Shown here: one piece after another, positions 28,762 to 34,869 of the stretch | How positions within the stretch are numbered: the stretch's first letter is position 1 | How the letters are laid out: each line of letters starts with the position of its first letter | Notes under the pieces: model-generated | What the model was told of the DNA's origin: nothing | The model's database searches: none | What the model saw: only the letters and a program-made list of their open reading frames with translations | NCBI RefSeq assembly: GCF_014062315.1 | Contig: NZ_JACGLT010000010.1 | Coordinates: 13,781-77,780, forward strand | Reading direction: 5' to 3' | Length of the DNA: 64,000 nt | Origin: Gelidibacter maritimus | Lineage (GTDB): Bacteria > Bacteroidota > Bacteroidia > Flavobacteriales > Flavobacteriaceae | Position numbers and translations under genes: made by a program

Positions 28762-29241
28762 TTAAAGTTCGTTAAAAATAGAGTGCATAAGACGCTTCTT
28801 GTCATTAATGCTCTCCTCTAACGAAATCATGGTCTCAGTTCTGTAAATACCTTCAATATCGTCTAACAGGAAGATGATATCTTTTGCGTGCGATGTGTTT
28901 TTAGCTCTTACCTTACAGAAAATATTAAATTTGCCTGTGGTAATGTGAGCCACAGTTACGAATGGTATTTCACTAATGCGCTCTAAAACAAATTTCGTTT
29001 GAGAAGTGTTATTTAAGAAAACGCCGACATAGGCAATAAAAGAATACCCTAATTTTTTATAATCCAAGGTCAAGGATGACCCTTTAATAATACCTGCTTC
29101 CTCCATTTTTTTTACGCGAACGTGAACTGTTCCAGCCGAAATCACTAATTTTTTGGCAATATCCGTAAATGGAATTCGCGTATTATCAATTAACATATCT
29201 AAAATTTGATGATCAATTTCATCTAATTTGAATTTACCCAT
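28762..29241 (-). CDS. Lrp/AsnC family transcriptional regulator
   Basis: 159 residues. An N-terminal AsnC-type winged HTH (KLDEIDHQILDMLIDNTRIP; ISAGTVHVRVKKMEEAGII, residues ~5-58) is followed by the RAM/AsnC ligand-binding domain (GVFLNNTSQTKFVLERI, VTTGKFN-like HITTGKFNIFCKV). Such proteins are octameric or dimeric amino-acid-responsive regulators, and the target is not evident. It is transcribed in the same direction as the upstream M14 peptidase gene but has its own -7-like element at 29267-29274, so it may be independently expressed. Confidence 0.93.
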   Translation of the reverse strand: MGKFKLDEIDHQILDMLIDNTRIPFTDIAKKLVISAGTVHVRVKKMEEAGIIKGSSLTLDYKKLGYSFIAYVGVFLNNTSQTKFVLERISEIPFVTVAHITTGKFNIFCKVRAKNTSHAKDIIFLLDDIEGIYRTETMISLEESINDKKRLMHSIFNEL

Positions 29242-29314: not shown

Positions 29315-30472
29315 TTACACAGATAGTGACTGTTTTTTATTATTTATCCATACGAAATCGATTGAGATGCCTTCACTTAATTCCGTATGATCTTCAACAA
29401 AAACTAATTGTTCATTTGCGTCAATTTCTCTGTGACCGAAAAAATCACTTAAATCTGAAATTTTATCAATTTTTGGAATAAATACAATGCGATCTTCTTC
29501 AAGTTTCTCATCATATTGTATGGCAATATCCGAAACTTGATGTCCTTCTCCTGTTTTCAACTTCGCATTTCGAATGATAATATCAAAAAATAACTTTTCG
29601 TTACGAGGAATTTCGAAATAAGTTTTTTCTTTAAGACCTTGTGGATTTCCAAACACAATCTCAACCACTCCAACCCATAAGGATTGAAAAATCAATTCCC
29701 TGACCTTTTCCCTGTTGTAATCTTCGTGATAATGGCCAGCTTCAAACAAAATCGTAGGCACATTTGAAGCTTGGAATGTATCCCCAACACAATTAATATT
29801 AAAAGCATCATCATAAATACCCACCTGACCTGGGATTTGGGATTGAAGATTATTATTCATTTTAACTATGACATCCATGGCTATCTTACGTGTTTTAGTC
29901 ACTGAGCGGCCGTTATTTTGAGCTGGGGCTAAGAAGGAAACAGCAGCAGGCTTATTCCTTTCTCCAGCACTGAATATGGTGCGCTGTCCATGAAGATTAA
30001 AACAAAAATCTGGTTGAAAATCCTCAAAACAATTTCTTAGCACCCTGCTTTCTGGTTGAGTTAAATCTTGTGCATCTCTATTTAAATCGACTTGATTAGC
30101 ATTTAATCGTGTGTACAGTCGTGAACCATCCGGATTCAACATAGGTATAATCCCAAGCGTACAACTATCCAACAATCTTCTCACAAAGTCATTTTTGCTT
30201 TGAGTGAGAACGTTTAATAGGTCAAAAATAGCTTTGGTGGTTGTACTTTCATTACCATGCATTTGAGACCACATTAAAATCTTCTTTGGTCCAGATCCGA
30301 CTTTTATAAAATGAATGTCTTCATTCAAAACTGAGCACCCAATTATTGATAGGTCAATATGAGTACTGTGCTTTTCTAACAAACCTCTGATATGATCTGA
30401 ATTGATATAGCGACCAAAAAGAAGTGCTTCTCGGTGATGCTCATATTCCTTTAATAAATGTTCTATATCCAT
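29315..30472 (-). CDS. M14 family zinc carboxypeptidase-like protein
   Basis: 385 residues from ATG at 30472. A TTG seven codons further upstream overlaps a promoter-like element and is rejected as the start. The first zinc motif is HGNE (His72, Glu75), the third ligand is His161 in FNLHGQR, and substrate-site elements NPDGSRLYTR and VDLNRDA are present. A late Glu in TILFEAGHYHED fits the catalytic base. There is no signal peptide, so it is likely cytosolic, acting on peptides or on amidated small molecules. It is divergent from an HTH regulator gene, and both promoters carry the same palindromic site (see 30487-30748). Confidence 0.88.
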   Translation of the reverse strand: MDIEHLLKEYEHHREALLFGRYINSDHIRGLLEKHSTHIDLSIIGCSVLNEDIHFIKVGSGPKKILMWSQMHGNESTTTKAIFDLLNVLTQSKNDFVRRLLDSCTLGIIPMLNPDGSRLYTRLNANQVDLNRDAQDLTQPESRVLRNCFEDFQPDFCFNLHGQRTIFSAGERNKPAAVSFLAPAQNNGRSVTKTRKIAMDVIVKMNNNLQSQIPGQVGIYDDAFNINCVGDTFQASNVPTILFEAGHYHEDYNREKVRELIFQSLWVGVVEIVFGNPQGLKEKTYFEIPRNEKLFFDIIIRNAKLKTGEGHQVSDIAIQYDEKLEEDRIVFIPKIDKISDLSDFFGHREIDANEQLVFVEDHTELSEGISIDFVWINNKKQSLSV

Positions 30473-30486
30473 GTGAAAATAATTAT

Positions 30487-30500
30487 GATACAAATGTAAA
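30487..30500 (-). promoter_or_regulatory. Palindromic operator-like site 1 overlapping the M14 gene promoter
   Basis: On the minus strand it reads TTTACATTTGTATC, a near-copy of the perfect palindrome at 30511-30524. It includes TACATTTG (30498-30491), a perfect TAnnTTTG -7 element about 19 nt before the M14 start codon, so a protein bound here would block promoter opening. Confidence 0.5.
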
Positions 30501-30510
30501 CAAATGAATT

Positions 30511-30524
30511 TTTACATTTGTAAA
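30511..30524. promoter_or_regulatory. Palindromic operator-like site 2
   Basis: TTTACATTTGTAAA, 6-bp arms separated by TT. It has the same architecture as site 3 at 30735-30748 and lies centre-to-centre ~24 bp from site 1, roughly two helical turns, so proteins on sites 1 and 2 could touch. Confidence 0.5.
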
Positions 30525-30734
30525 CGATATTATTCGCGGTATTTGTTTACAACAATCAACCATTAGACCTCGTTTAAAACACCATTCAGGCGAATTATCA
30601 TCTTCTAAATTAGAATTTAGAAAAGTACAACATTAAATTCTGATAACCAATATATTAAATTATGTAATATAAAGTTTAGATTTCAATAAAAACTAATGAT
30701 TTTCTTAAATAATTAGCTTTGAAGGTTGTTTTTG

Positions 30735-30748
30735 GTTACATTTGTAAC
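30735..30748. promoter_or_regulatory. Palindromic operator-like site 3 with -7 promoter element of the HTH gene
   Basis: GTTACATTTGTAAC, a perfect palindrome around TT. It contains TACATTTG (30737-30744), a perfect TAnnTTTG -7 element. A TTTG at 30718-30721 could be the -33 box with a somewhat short 15-nt spacer. Transcription would start near 30750, which excludes the TTG at 30719 as initiator and supports ATG 30776. Confidence 0.55.
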
Positions 30749-30775: not shown

Positions 30776-31153
30776 ATGATCAACAATGAGGAATTCGCAA
30801 AGCGGTTACAAAAAGTTATCGATTATTATGCAGAATCGGCATCTTCTTTCTCCGATGTCATAGGTGTTCAGCGCTCAAGTATTTCGCATATTCTATCCGG
30901 TAGGAACAAACCCAGTTTGGATTTCGTACTAAAAGTATTATCGTCCTACCCCGAAGTCGAACTCTATTGGCTGTTAAATGGTAAGGGCGAGTTCCCCGCC
31001 CAATCTAAAGTTATTGCTAAAGAACAAAATCATATCCCAGAAAAAACACCGCAACCGACTTCAAGTCTGAACGCAAAAAAAGATGAGAAAAACATTGAGA
31101 AAATTGTTGTTTTTTATACGGACGGGACTTTCAAGGAATTTATAAAAAATTAA
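30776..31153 (+). CDS. HTH (XRE/CI-repressor-like) transcriptional regulator
   Basis: 125 residues from ATG 30776. Residues 1-70 form a helix-turn-helix domain of the phage CI/XRE type: FAKRLQKVIDYYAESASSFS, then IGVQRSSISHILSGRNKPSL (recognition helix) and the closing VELYWLLNGKGEFP. The remaining ~55 residues are a polar linker ending in a short beta-like segment (KIVVFYTDGTFKEFI). It is probably a dimeric repressor. Its promoter and that of the divergent M14 peptidase gene share 14-nt palindromes, which suggests autoregulation and control of the neighbour. An IS200-type remnant begins ~20 bp after its stop. Confidence 0.9.
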   Translation: MINNEEFAKRLQKVIDYYAESASSFSDVIGVQRSSISHILSGRNKPSLDFVLKVLSSYPEVELYWLLNGKGEFPAQSKVIAKEQNHIPEKTPQPTSSLNAKKDEKNIEKIVVFYTDGTFKEFIKN

Positions 31154-31260: not shown

Positions 31261-31671
31261 TCACTTCTCTTCTTTCTCTTAATATTTTACATGTTTCTTA
31301 ATCATTTCCTCGACCAAGTTGATGATGGTAACAAAATATCCCCGCGCCCAAAAATGATTGACCCAATAGGGCTTCGTTTTCAATTTAGGGTAACTCTTGA
31401 ACAGTTTTATTGCAATCTTGTCCTTTAGAGTACCCATCAATTTTGTAATAGAAACTTTCGGCGGAACTGAAACCAATAAATGAAAGTGGTCTTCTTCAAC
31501 GTTCAATGCCCGAACATCACAACCTTTCCAATCATAGAGCATTTTATAACGTGTTCGACCAAATTTTATATTGCTCCCTTCAAAATCCGAAGACGATATT
31601 TTGGAACCCAAACAATATGATAGTCACATTCATAAATAAGATGGCTAAGTTTCTTATATTTATTTACTCAT
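31261..31671 (-). pseudogene. Broken IS200/IS605 TnpA (Y1 transposase)
   Basis: From ATG 31671 an in-frame stop appears at the fourth codon. A second frame then shows the conserved N-terminus KLSHLIYECDYHIVWVPKYR, another stop after ILKGAI, and a further shift near 31550 into YDWKGC, the HUH motif in EDHFHLL, and FKSYPKLKTKPYW, FWARGYFV. A premature TAA (probably Gln to stop) precedes the natural TGA at 31261. The Tyr expected in the last helix reads His (KKHVKY). At least two frame disruptions and three stops make it inactive. Confidence 0.9.
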
Positions 31672-32052: not shown

Positions 32053-33501
32053 ATGCTTTTTAACTCAATAGATTTTGCAATATTTCTACCTATTGTATTT
32101 TGTATCTACTGGTTTATCACACAGAAAAACCTAAAGGCGCAAAATCTATTTATTTTATTTGCAAGCTATGTTTTTTATGGATGGTGGGATTGGAGGTTTC
32201 TGTCGTTAATAATTTTCAGCACTATAGTTGATTACTCTATTGGTATCACCTTAGGTCGAGAAGAAAATCCAATAAAAAGAAAGATGTTCTTATGGATAAG
32301 CATCTTTACCAATTTAGGGTTTTTGGGCTTTTTCAAATATTTTAATTTTTTTCTAGAAAATTTACAATCTGCATACACCTTTTTTGGAAGTGAACTTAAT
32401 ATAAGTTCCTTACATATTATTTTACCTGTTGGAATAAGCTTTTATACCTTTCAGACCTTAAGCTATACTATTGATATTTATAAAGGAAAGTTGGAACCGA
32501 CGAAAGACATCATTGCCTTCTCAGCTTTTGTAAGCTTTTTCCCCCAACTTGTCGCAGGCCCAATAGAAAGAGCAACTAGTTTATTACCACAATTCTTTCA
32601 AAAACGGCAATTTGATTATAACCAAGCGGTAAATGGAATGCGGCAAATTTTATGGGGTTTTTTTAAAAAAATTGTTATTGCTGATAATTGTGCAATGTTT
32701 GCTAATCAATTCTTTAATAACTCATCAGAGTTCTCTGGGAGTTCTCTATTTCTGGGCGCAGTATTCTTTACATTTCAAATATATTGCGATTTCTCTGGTT
32801 ATTCTGATATTGCAATTGGCACTTCAAGATTATTTGGTTTTGATTTAAAGCAAAACTTTGCATTTCCTTATTTTTCACGAGATATAGCTGAATTTTGGAG
32901 GCGATGGCACATTTCACTCTCTACTTGGTTCCGTGATTACCTGTATATTCCGTTAGGAGGCAGTAGGGGCGGAAAATGGATGAAAATTAGAAACACATTT
33001 ATCATCTTTATTGTAAGTGGTTTTTGGCACGGTGCTAATTGGACATTTATTGTATGGGGCGCGTTAAACGCGATTTATTTTTTACCTCTACTAATTACCA
33101 AAAGAAATAGAACACACTTAGGAACAGTAGCTGAAAACAGCGTGCTACCATCGTTTAAGGAGTTTATCAATATGGCTTTTACATTTTTATTATCTGTAAT
33201 AGCATGGGTGTTTTTTAGAGCCAAAAATGTCGAACATGCAATTTCTTATCTAAAAACAATTTTTTCAAACAGTCTTTTTAGTATTCCAGAATTCGAAAAT
33301 AAACGCTATGCTCTCGAAATTATAGTGCTCGTTATATTTATGCTTATAATTGAATGGCTTGGAAGAAGAGACCAATATGGAATCGAAAAACTGGCCTTAA
33401 GATGTAATAGGAAAGTTAGACTCAGTATCTATTTAGTTCTCGTGTGTTTAATCTATCTTTATTTAGGCAAAGAACAAGAATTTATATATTTTCAATTTTA
33501 A
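32053..33501 (+). CDS. MBOAT family membrane O-acyltransferase (AlgI/DltB-like)
   Basis: 482 residues with about 10-12 membrane segments. The N-terminus MLFNSIDFAIFLPIVFCIYW and SYVFYGWWDWRFL are typical of the AlgI/PatA branch. The core motif FWRRWHISLSTWFRDYLYIP (~residues 283-302) and the catalytic His in SGFWHGANWTF (~322-332) are intact. It should carry an acyl, probably acetyl, group across the inner membrane for modification of an exported polymer. An SGNH-like protein follows after 2 bp and should perform or assist the transfer in the periplasm. The acceptor could be the surface polysaccharide or peptidoglycan. Confidence 0.93.
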   Translation: MLFNSIDFAIFLPIVFCIYWFITQKNLKAQNLFILFASYVFYGWWDWRFLSLIIFSTIVDYSIGITLGREENPIKRKMFLWISIFTNLGFLGFFKYFNFFLENLQSAYTFFGSELNISSLHIILPVGISFYTFQTLSYTIDIYKGKLEPTKDIIAFSAFVSFFPQLVAGPIERATSLLPQFFQKRQFDYNQAVNGMRQILWGFFKKIVIADNCAMFANQFFNNSSEFSGSSLFLGAVFFTFQIYCDFSGYSDIAIGTSRLFGFDLKQNFAFPYFSRDIAEFWRRWHISLSTWFRDYLYIPLGGSRGGKWMKIRNTFIIFIVSGFWHGANWTFIVWGALNAIYFLPLLITKRNRTHLGTVAENSVLPSFKEFINMAFTFLLSVIAWVFFRAKNVEHAISYLKTIFSNSLFSIPEFENKRYALEIIVLVIFMLIIEWLGRRDQYGIEKLALRCNRKVRLSIYLVLVCLIYLYLGKEQEFIYFQF

Positions 33502-33503
33502 AT

Positions 33504-34445
33504 ATGGTTAGTTTTATAAGAAAGTTTAGCGTATTTGCGTTCATTTCAATAGCTATATTAGCTATTATAATAGTCGTACCTTTTTCTATAATTAAACAAA
33601 AAGCCCGATTTGAAATAAGCGATAGTGCCAATATTGTTATGTTTGGACATTCTCACACTGAATGCGCTTACGATGACGAAATTATTCCTAATTTTAAAAA
33701 TTTAGCGTCCTCAGGAGAATCTTACTTCTACACTTTTCAAAAGATAAAGAAAACATTAAGTCAAAATCCAGAAATTGAAACTGTTTTTGTCGAATTTACA
33801 AATAATCAAATTGACAAGGTAATGGATGAATGGACTTGGGGGTATGACAAGATGTCATTTTATCTACCTGTCTATTTACCCTTTTTAGAATATCAAGATG
33901 TTGAAATTCTAAATGACAATAACGCTAGCACTTTCAGATCAACAATTTCTGTAGCTTCAAGAAAGAACTTATTCCGATTTTTAAAATCAGATTATGATTA
34001 CTCTGATGAAATAGGCGGGTTTACATCTCTAAATGTAAGTGCGGTTGATAGAATTTTAGATACTATGGATACTAATATTCAACATAATAAGACTTATTCT
34101 ACTTCAAATGTTAATTTACATTATTTAAGAAAAATTATTGATTACTGTAGGAGTGAAGGGAAAGATGTATTTCTTGTTAGAACGCCGCAACATAAGAAAT
34201 ATAAAATGTTAAAAAATGAAGAGCAATTCCTTTCTGTTAGAAACTCTCAATTTTCTGATATTGATTTTATAGACTTCAACAATAACAATCTTCCAAACAC
34301 TTATTATGCTGACTTAGAGCACCTAAACGGAAAGGGAGCCACGGTACTTTCAAAGAAATTTAAGCAATTACTAGAAGGGGGCTTAATTAGCTCAAAAGAG
34401 AAGTTCTTTATTGATAGAACCTTTCACTATTTAATTTCGGAATAG
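33504..34445 (+). CDS. SGNH-like periplasmic acyl-transfer partner of the MBOAT protein
   Basis: 313 residues from ATG 33504, two bases after the MBOAT stop. A possible earlier in-frame start would overlap the MBOAT gene by 58 nt and break the signal-anchor. One N-terminal membrane segment (~8-31) precedes NIVMFGHSHTECAYDD (nucleophile Ser50 in a GxSx block I). A late DLEHLNGKG near residue 270 provides the Asp-x-x-His dyad. The layout matches DltD/AlgJ/PatB-type proteins that work with an MBOAT. I expect it to be anchored in the inner membrane with a periplasmic catalytic domain. Overall similarity to any named family is weak. Confidence 0.82.
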   Translation: MVSFIRKFSVFAFISIAILAIIIVVPFSIIKQKARFEISDSANIVMFGHSHTECAYDDEIIPNFKNLASSGESYFYTFQKIKKTLSQNPEIETVFVEFTNNQIDKVMDEWTWGYDKMSFYLPVYLPFLEYQDVEILNDNNASTFRSTISVASRKNLFRFLKSDYDYSDEIGGFTSLNVSAVDRILDTMDTNIQHNKTYSTSNVNLHYLRKIIDYCRSEGKDVFLVRTPQHKKYKMLKNEEQFLSVRNSQFSDIDFIDFNNNNLPNTYYADLEHLNGKGATVLSKKFKQLLEGGLISSKEKFFIDRTFHYLISE

Positions 34446-34457
34446 CTTTCTTTTGAG

Positions 34458-34465
34458 TAATTTTG
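34458..34465 (+). promoter_or_regulatory. Putative -7 promoter element of small lipoprotein gene
   Basis: TAATTTTG matches TAnnTTTG, 17 nt before ATG 34483. It covers the alternative TTG start at 34453 and so argues against it. Confidence 0.45.
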
Positions 34466-34482
34466 TCCTCAAATTAAAAAAC

Positions 34483-34869
34483 ATGAAATTTCCATTAGTT
34501 TTCATTTTCTTACTCCTCTTGAGCAGCTGCTACAATAAGGAACGTGAATGCAAAGATTTTAGAACTGGTACATTCGAATTTAAATATACAACGGATGGTG
34601 TTGAAAAAACGGGTCGGTTTGTGAGAACTGAAAACCTTAACATCGATTATTATGAAAATAAAATCGATACGGCATCTATTAGATGGATTAACGATTGCGA
34701 ATTTATCATGAAACATATCAATCCGAAGAATATGAGCGAAGAGAAAGCCATCCATATGAAGATTTTAAGCACTTCTGAAGACTCCTATACTTTCGAGTAT
34801 AGCTTAGCCATTCAGCATGGCACCCAACAAAAACGTGTAGAACAAGGGAAGGCTAAAAAAGTCAAATAA
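34483..34869 (+). CDS. Small putative lipoprotein
   Basis: 128 residues from ATG 34483. A signal peptide with lipobox LLSSC puts the lipid-modified Cys at 16. The mature part (~112 residues) has a beta-rich pattern (GTFEFKYTTDGVEKTGRF; SIRWINDCEFIMKHI; TFEYSLAIQHGTQQ) like single-domain lipocalin- or DUF-type lipoproteins common in flavobacteria. I do not recognise a named family. It has its own promoter-like element, so it need not belong to the acyltransferase operon. Confidence 0.8.
   Translation: MKFPLVFIFLLLLSSCYNKERECKDFRTGTFEFKYTTDGVEKTGRFVRTENLNIDYYENKIDTASIRWINDCEFIMKHINPKNMSEEKAIHMKILSTSEDSYTFEYSLAIQHGTQQKRVEQGKAKKVK

Follow-up and report, generated by a model that had tools for sequence, protein, structure and literature searches.

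Conserved putative operators at full-turn spacings point to a probable looped repression of a divergent HTH-M14 peptidase gene pair in the Flavobacteriaceae

The region between a small helix-turn-helix (HTH) regulator gene and a divergent M14 zinc carboxypeptidase-like gene of Gelidibacter maritimus is probably a site of looped repression, where the HTH protein would repress the two promoters by occupying the -7 box of each and by forming a DNA loop, with a bending protein at an intervening element, E. The 125-aa XRE-type protein would bind as a dimer to TTACAnnTGTAA dyads, with a dimer at site O1 covering the M14 -7 box and a dimer at O3 covering the HTH gene's own -7 box, which would result in autorepression. 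Site O2, 24 bp from O1, and a weaker site O4, about 35 bp further, would form a cluster on the M14 side in which O1 and O2 act as a pair. This cluster would contact O3 across a DNA loop of about 20-22 turns, with the bending protein, probably of the HU/IHF family, located at E and a conserved C-terminal hairpin on a flexible linker as the likeliest contact between dimers. The DNA loop is proposed because of the helical phasing between O2 and O3 in related genomes. Evidence for DNA looping has mostly come from phasing experiments at the bench, on a small number of model operons. The near-universal regulatory region of a large family seems here to hold such an experiment in its evolutionary record, where changes in spacing are either small (1-2 bp) or close to full turns, with very few intermediate ones.

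The features are listed in Table 1 by their positions in the window (the whole 64,000-nt stretch of DNA that was analysed). The intergenic region, from the M14 ATG (30472) to the HTH ATG (30776), is 303 bp long and holds O1, O2 and O3. The HTH start was set at 30776 in place of an upstream TTG at 30719 from the open reading frame list, because relatives align from that methionine. HGNE, NLHG and FEAG, which we take to be the catalytic motifs of the M14 protein, were present on direct reading of its translation. The genome of the window is 4.7 Mb in size and the closest named relatives of the HTH protein were from Gelidibacter species.

Table 1. Genes, predicted promoter boxes and candidate regulatory sites of the HTH-M14 region
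Feature	Position	Strand	Evidence or remark
M14 zinc carboxypeptidase-like gene, 385 aa, candidate divergent target gene	29315..30472	-	Pfam PF00246, 55.2 bits (cut-off 21.6)
O1, putative operator overlapping the M14 -7 box, minus-strand sequence TTACATTTGTAT, one mismatch	30488..30499	-	Sequence; conserved in relatives
Predicted M14 -7 box TACATTTG (TAnnTTTG)	30491..30498	-	18 bp from the M14 ATG (30472)
O2, perfect putative operator, 24 bp from O1, over no promoter box	30512..30523	.	Sequence; conserved in relatives
O4, degenerate putative operator with an intact left arm, located 35 bp from O2	30547..30558	.	Sequence; better kept in some relatives
Element E, 34-bp, AT-rich, candidate bend site for an HU/IHF-family protein; WWTCARnnnnTTA...TTATATAAAGT in relatives	30642..30675	+	Unsupervised motif search
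IHF-consensus-like 13-mer AACCAATATATTA, 1 mismatch to WATCARNNNNTTR	30645..30657	+	Register conserved in relatives
O3, perfect putative operator over the HTH -7 box	30736..30747	+	Sequence; conserved in relatives
Predicted HTH -7 box TACATTTG	30737..30744	+	31 bp from the HTH ATG (30776)
XRE/Cro-CI-type HTH gene, 125 aa, presumed repressor	30776..31153	+	Pfam PF01381, 26.2 bits (cut-off 23); AlphaFold2 model
C-terminal beta-hairpin codons (IEKIVVFYTDGTFKEFI), conserved, preceded by a variable linker; candidate element for oligomerisation	31094..31144	+	Relatives and model

The HTH protein belongs to the XRE or HTH_3 family by a profile score above the gathering cut-off (Table 1) and by HTH-type helices in its AlphaFold2 model, which has five helices over residues 4-68, low confidence at residues 81-90 and 95-103, and hairpin strands at residues 109-113 and 119-123. 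Relatives were variable after residue 75 whereas the C-terminal hairpin was conserved, and a flexible linker that ends in a conserved hairpin might serve to bridge HTH dimers. A Foldseek search with the model included C proteins, SinR, 434 Cro, P22 c2 and DdrO in its match list, none of them at E <= 0.001, and the best match among solved structures by sequence search was only at E 0.033. The LacI/GalR family, which includes GalR, combines a LacI-type HTH with a sugar-binding domain, and membership was rejected for this protein of 125 aa with Pfam matches to HTH_3 and HTH_19 only. A CI/LexA-type repressor with an S24 domain was likewise rejected, as Pfam and NCBIfam gave no S24 match and the C-terminus consists of the linker and hairpin. 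A phage or defence origin of the gene was also set aside, with PHROGs giving repressor-type HTH matches only and PADLOC weak ones.

Three copies of a palindrome had been described in the original prediction, one of them a near copy on the minus strand, and all were located: TTTACATTTGTATC on the minus strand at 30487-30500, TTTACATTTGTAAA at 30511-30524 and GTTACATTTGTAAC at 30735-30748. The further claim that two of the copies contain TAnnTTTG placed for the HTH and M14 genes also held, with TACATTTG in register at O1 and O3. With the flavobacterial -7 box TAnnTTTG taken at -12 to -5, following excerpts of its published description (PMC9723704), transcription starts were predicted at about 30486 for M14 (14-nt leader) and about 30749 for HTH (27-nt leader). 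Copies with up to two mismatches numbered 26 in the window against 24.4 expected, a chance level, so only exact copies carry weight. The exact 12-mer occurred three times in the 4.7-Mb genome (once for the reversed-pattern control), twice at this locus and a third time inside a stretch that by eye appeared to be coding. The conservation of the sites at about 200 related loci rules out chance.

The HTH protein was detected in 374 of 395 family genomes and in 197 of 203 genera (E <= 1e-10). A sample of 150 loci from one genome set and 80 from named contigs was reduced to 208 once identical regions were removed. The M14 gene was divergent and upstream of HTH in 145 of the 150 loci of the first set and adjoined it divergently in 202 of the 208 non-redundant loci. 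The HTH-M14 module seems widespread in the family, and the regulator, its operator and the architecture seem to be previously uncharacterised. When 142 loci were aligned at O2, its arm columns were 94-100% conserved and its two central bases variable, with the arm conservation and the 24-bp spacing partly a matter of construction since the O2 finder required 8 or more of the 10 arm bases together with a weak O1 located 24 bp away. A scan without the pair requirement placed O1 and O2 exactly 24 bp apart in 17/30 loci. Cores of AATT, AAAT and ATTT were found at O2 in 40, 37 and 34 loci with intact arms. At O1 the CAAA and TA box columns were 96-100% conserved in the same 142 loci while the outer left bases varied, and O3 read TTACATTTGTAA in 109 of the 133 loci having an O3. 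O4-like sites with at least 8 of 10 arm bases were located 34 or 35 bp to the right of O2 (51 and 57 instances, respectively, over 184 loci). Outside the family, 10 of the 17 genomes with a match were read (HTH identity 31-55%), and each of the ten loci carried one or more sites with perfect arms, either in the intergenic region or where the HTH gene starts.

Because the arms of O2 are conserved around a variable core, the palindrome is taken to be more than a -7 box. The original prediction had set against itself a pattern in which orthologous regions keep only the TAnnTTTG part and the arms vary freely, and the comparison of intergenic regions of HTH-M14 pairs gave the opposite. Its central claim, that the palindrome is an HTH operator covering the -7 boxes, stands in so far as conserved dyads lie over both boxes but is an incomplete account of the region, as it lacked the fixed 24-bp O1-O2 pair, the weaker fourth site, the IHF-like element and the helical phasing of O2 and O3.

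Loci from which the HTH gene is missing provided a second line of comparison. An M14 relative remained in 15 of the 21 family genomes without a detected HTH protein, and a strict dependence of M14 on HTH was therefore not supported. Fourteen of these 15 genomes were examined, with G272 omitted as its match starts at a contig end. The 24-bp O1-O2 pair was present in 191 of 202 loci with HTH and in 2 of 14 without (Fisher 7e-12, with species that are not independent). A site near the M14 start matching 9 or more of the 10 arm bases was found in 202/202 and 3/14 loci, respectively, while the -7 box was kept in 201/202 and 9/14, such that the dyads were mostly lost in HTH-less loci while the box often stayed. 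A strong dyad was retained in L235 and L238, which are HTH-less loci of one genus. A contig edge lies 239 bp upstream in L242, another HTH-less locus with a positive site, and its HTH gene may be off the contig. In L244 and L245, both HTH-less and of one genus, a lipoprotein-like gene that is elsewhere located 3' of HTH seemed by eye to abut M14, and these loci look as if the HTH gene and the control region had been deleted.

These results bear on a reading without any regulator, in which the dyads would be an elaborated sigma-A promoter pattern, TAnnTTTG with a chance mirror image. O1 and O3 do hold the -7 box in register as such a reading would have it, but the arms of O2 with their free core and the decay of the sites where HTH is missing, steeper than that of the box, led us to reject it as most improbable. 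The palindrome very probably serves the HTH protein as its operator.

The distance between O2 and O3 was examined in 184 loci. O2 was picked on the scores of O2 and O1, and O3 on its score near the HTH start, with distance playing no part. Distances fell at 202-204 bp (9 loci), 211-215 bp (71), 221-225 bp (93) and 232-235 bp (6), and none of the 184 loci had a distance of 205-210, 216-220 or 226-231 bp. Five outlying distances were 164, 190, 192, 243 and 255 bp, four of which were within 2.3 bp of the fitted phase. The class means of 203.1, 213.1, 223.2 and 234.3 bp are separated by unequal steps of 10.0, 10.1 and 11.1 bp. A fit to the 178 loci that were in classes and on the tree, which excludes the five outlying distances and one locus absent from the tree, gave a best period of 10.38 bp (R 0.87). 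At least 24 class changes were required on the tree of HTH and M14, whereas each of 20 label shuffles required 65 or more. As in GalR-HU-type looped repression, the two sites would lie on the same helical face, which is here a comparative measure: 177 of 184 loci were within 2 bp of the fitted 10.38-bp phase, and the control spacer, from the HTH stop to the next gene, gave an R of 0.32.

Changes in O2-O3 spacing on the tree, counted over all 184 loci with the outliers kept, included 49 of 1-2 bp, one of 3-7 bp, 21 of 8-13 bp and six larger, while the control spacer of 80 loci had 20, 13, 6 and 16 in the same size classes (Fisher P = 2.6e-5 for changes of 3-7 bp versus 8-13 bp). A fixed-pattern search over 198-228 bp in the 395 genomes matched 167 genomes, with zero reversed-control matches among the genome rows listed. 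Among the matches listed were 40 further genomes that served as a replicate, of which 35 were within 2 bp of the phase and three beyond 3 bp, one of these distances in the replicate being 219 bp. Six rows in which orientation or site identity was unclear were dropped from the replicate (G249, G321, G339, G383, G401 and G415), and it missed three genomes, G125, G291 and G399, each of which is at 213 bp by coordinates.

Repression could instead be local only, with each site bound alone, no loop, and a spacing quantised by a factor at E or by a preference for indels of 10-12 bp. O1 and O3 overlie the boxes and might each work independently, and no O3 was called in 21 of 208 loci. The O3-ATG spacing, which was rejected as a control as it is itself constrained and was replaced by the downstream spacer, showed four 10-12 bp changes too, along with a single change of 3-7 bp. 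Part of the 10-12 bp preference may therefore be mutational, because the O3-ATG distance needs no phasing. Set against this reading are the two arms kept at O2, which lies over no box, the avoidance of 3-7 bp changes between O2 and O3 unlike in the downstream spacer of the same loci, and the quantised spacing of O2 and E described below. We regard repression without a loop as unlikely.

A loop to O3 would not be universal, because many of the 21 loci without a called O3 have the O1/O2 pair (15 loci) and E (13 loci). Three of the 21 hold a decayed O3, and some carry extra sites about 65 bp from O2. A different array of sites with spacings often of about 21-24 and 43 bp was seen in L019, L021, L140, L143, L146, L147 and L212, and this array is a second architecture of the same putative operator.

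Element E was identified by an unsupervised motif search of the O2-O3 interval in 131 loci, which returned one 34-bp element that starts 93-94 bp before O3 in 110 of them. When rescored on 207 loci that include the 131 on which it was defined, E was above the 99th percentile of shuffles in 174. Its core matched WATCARNNNNTTR, the E. coli IHF consensus, with at most one mismatch at a single register in 136 of 160 loci (exactly in 32/160), while other registers gave no more than 8%. According to excerpts of one study (PMC8421141), from which this consensus was taken, IHF sites are bent by about 160 degrees and most strong sites have an A-tract to the left of the core. Such a tract was not enriched at E: of 160 loci, 26% had runs of at least four A on this side of the core, compared to 25% in random spacer stretches. 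The 3' arm of E, TTATATAAAGT, located to the right of the core, was conserved like the IHF-like half and is not explained by the E. coli IHF consensus. The genome of the window has two genes of the HU/IHF family. The protein predicted to bend DNA at E is probably of this family, and it could be some other protein.

The spacing of E differed on its two sides. Changes between O2 and E included 35 of 1-2 bp, none of 3-8 bp, 24 of 9-12 bp and three larger, and E-O3 spacing was nearly fixed, with 33 changes of 1-2 bp, two of 3-4 bp and five of 10-13 bp (40 in total). The HTH protein or the protein bound at E might also activate, where the M14-side cluster and the bend would bring dimers to RNA polymerase at the HTH promoter and the region would function as a two-way switch. 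The persistence of E and of O1/O2 in loci without a called O3 is consistent with this, as the right-hand partner there may be a promoter complex, but O3 overlaps the HTH -7 box in most loci, which favours repression when the protein is plentiful. We consider such activation rather unlikely. The loci without a called O3 show that the arrangement has variants, and the right-hand partner of the proposed loop may sometimes be RNA polymerase itself. Within the preferred reading of looped repression, we also put forward a composite idea as a long shot: the M14 carboxypeptidase would trim the C-terminal hairpin of the HTH protein, breaking the dimer contacts and the loop such that each of the two proteins would control the other, while the record of spacer lengths across the family would be a natural phasing experiment giving the helical repeat of a looped promoter, about 10.4 bp, in living cells.

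Further palindrome copies in the genome were suggested by the original prediction as a check, and here the scan came up empty relative to its control. TTACANNTGTAA was located at five places in the window's own genome against four for the reversed pattern, and a wider regulon there was rejected. The extended dyad TTTACANNTGTAAAC occurred exactly once, at O2, in nine of nine genomes of the window's genus and was matched in 22 of 39 relatives. In other genera several matches to the extended dyad were distant from HTH or on a different contig, among them those in G010, G021, G036 and G039, and its reversed control also yielded scattered matches. Within the window's genus the regulator appears to serve its own locus only, and it may have weaker or lineage-specific targets.

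The precedent for the proposed loop is the GalR-HU repressosome of the E. coli gal operon, in which two operators on one helical face, with an architectural protein between them, provide loop-dependent repression of two promoters. The ladder of 203, 213, 223 and 234 bp, from which looping is proposed here by comparison, resembles gal in its full-turn steps, where repression by GalR and HU was best at 103, 113, 123 and 133 bp in excerpts of the published account (PMC4693257). The present region differs from gal in its 125-aa XRE-type protein, a loop of approximately twice the length, divergent genes and an IHF-like motif in place of hbs, and its ladder was made by evolution while that of gal was made in the laboratory. 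RcoLS20 of the Bacillus subtilis plasmid pLS20, an Xre-family regulator, is described in excerpts of its report as looping DNA at divergent promoters, its own included; the loop joins two operators, and inserting 5 bp disturbs it (PMC4207663). The likeness, drawn from the family, the divergent promoters including its own and the two operators, is accompanied by features particular to RcoLS20, namely a 75-bp spacer with a static bend, a plasmid conjugation switch and a Gram-positive host.

Other small repressors share single features with the HTH protein. CI and Cro of the lambda/434 type have an HTH fold of the same class, and the neighbouring lambda operators OR1 and OR2 are 24 bp apart as are O1 and O2, but the HTH protein differs from CI in having a low-confidence linker and short hairpin only, with no CI-type C-terminal domain. 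In ImmR/ImmA and DdrO/IrrE a small XRE repressor is encoded beside a metallopeptidase, and the HTH gene likewise adjoins a metallopeptidase gene. Unlike ImmA and IrrE, the peptidase here is of family M14, and it has a relative in 15 of the 21 HTH-less family genomes mentioned above.

Looped repression is known, and what appears to be new here is the regulator, the operator and the record of full-turn spacing. Literature searches covering titles and the beginnings of abstracts, with few subscription journals, gave no paper among the matches listed on the HTH-M14 pair, its operator or full-turn spacing, and with the same scope no repressor loop was found for this bacterial group. The 12-mer string turned up in three papers that, by title and abstract, are about other organisms. 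If true, the proposed mechanism would offer a direct looping test in this group and would supply an operator and architecture for a widespread, uncharacterised regulator. Quantised spacer lengths could then reveal loops in genomes before experiments.

Gene order was compared between the window and 20 longer loci, leaving out L263, in which no HTH frame was found. Downstream of HTH in the window are an IS200/IS605-type transposase-like frame (31279-31611, minus strand) and two further genes (32053-34445), which are probably an insertion in the window's lineage. The small lipoprotein-like gene at 34453-34869 is located beyond them, and in relatives it adjoins HTH directly in 12 of 20 rows. Other genes in the rows resemble, as we presume, those for proline dehydrogenase, aroB and subunits of topoisomerase. 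A 159-aa regulator of the Lrp/AsnC type (28762-29241, minus strand) is located directly downstream of M14; it differed little by eye between the window and the congener L252, and a gene of this type occupied the same place in 15 of 20 rows.
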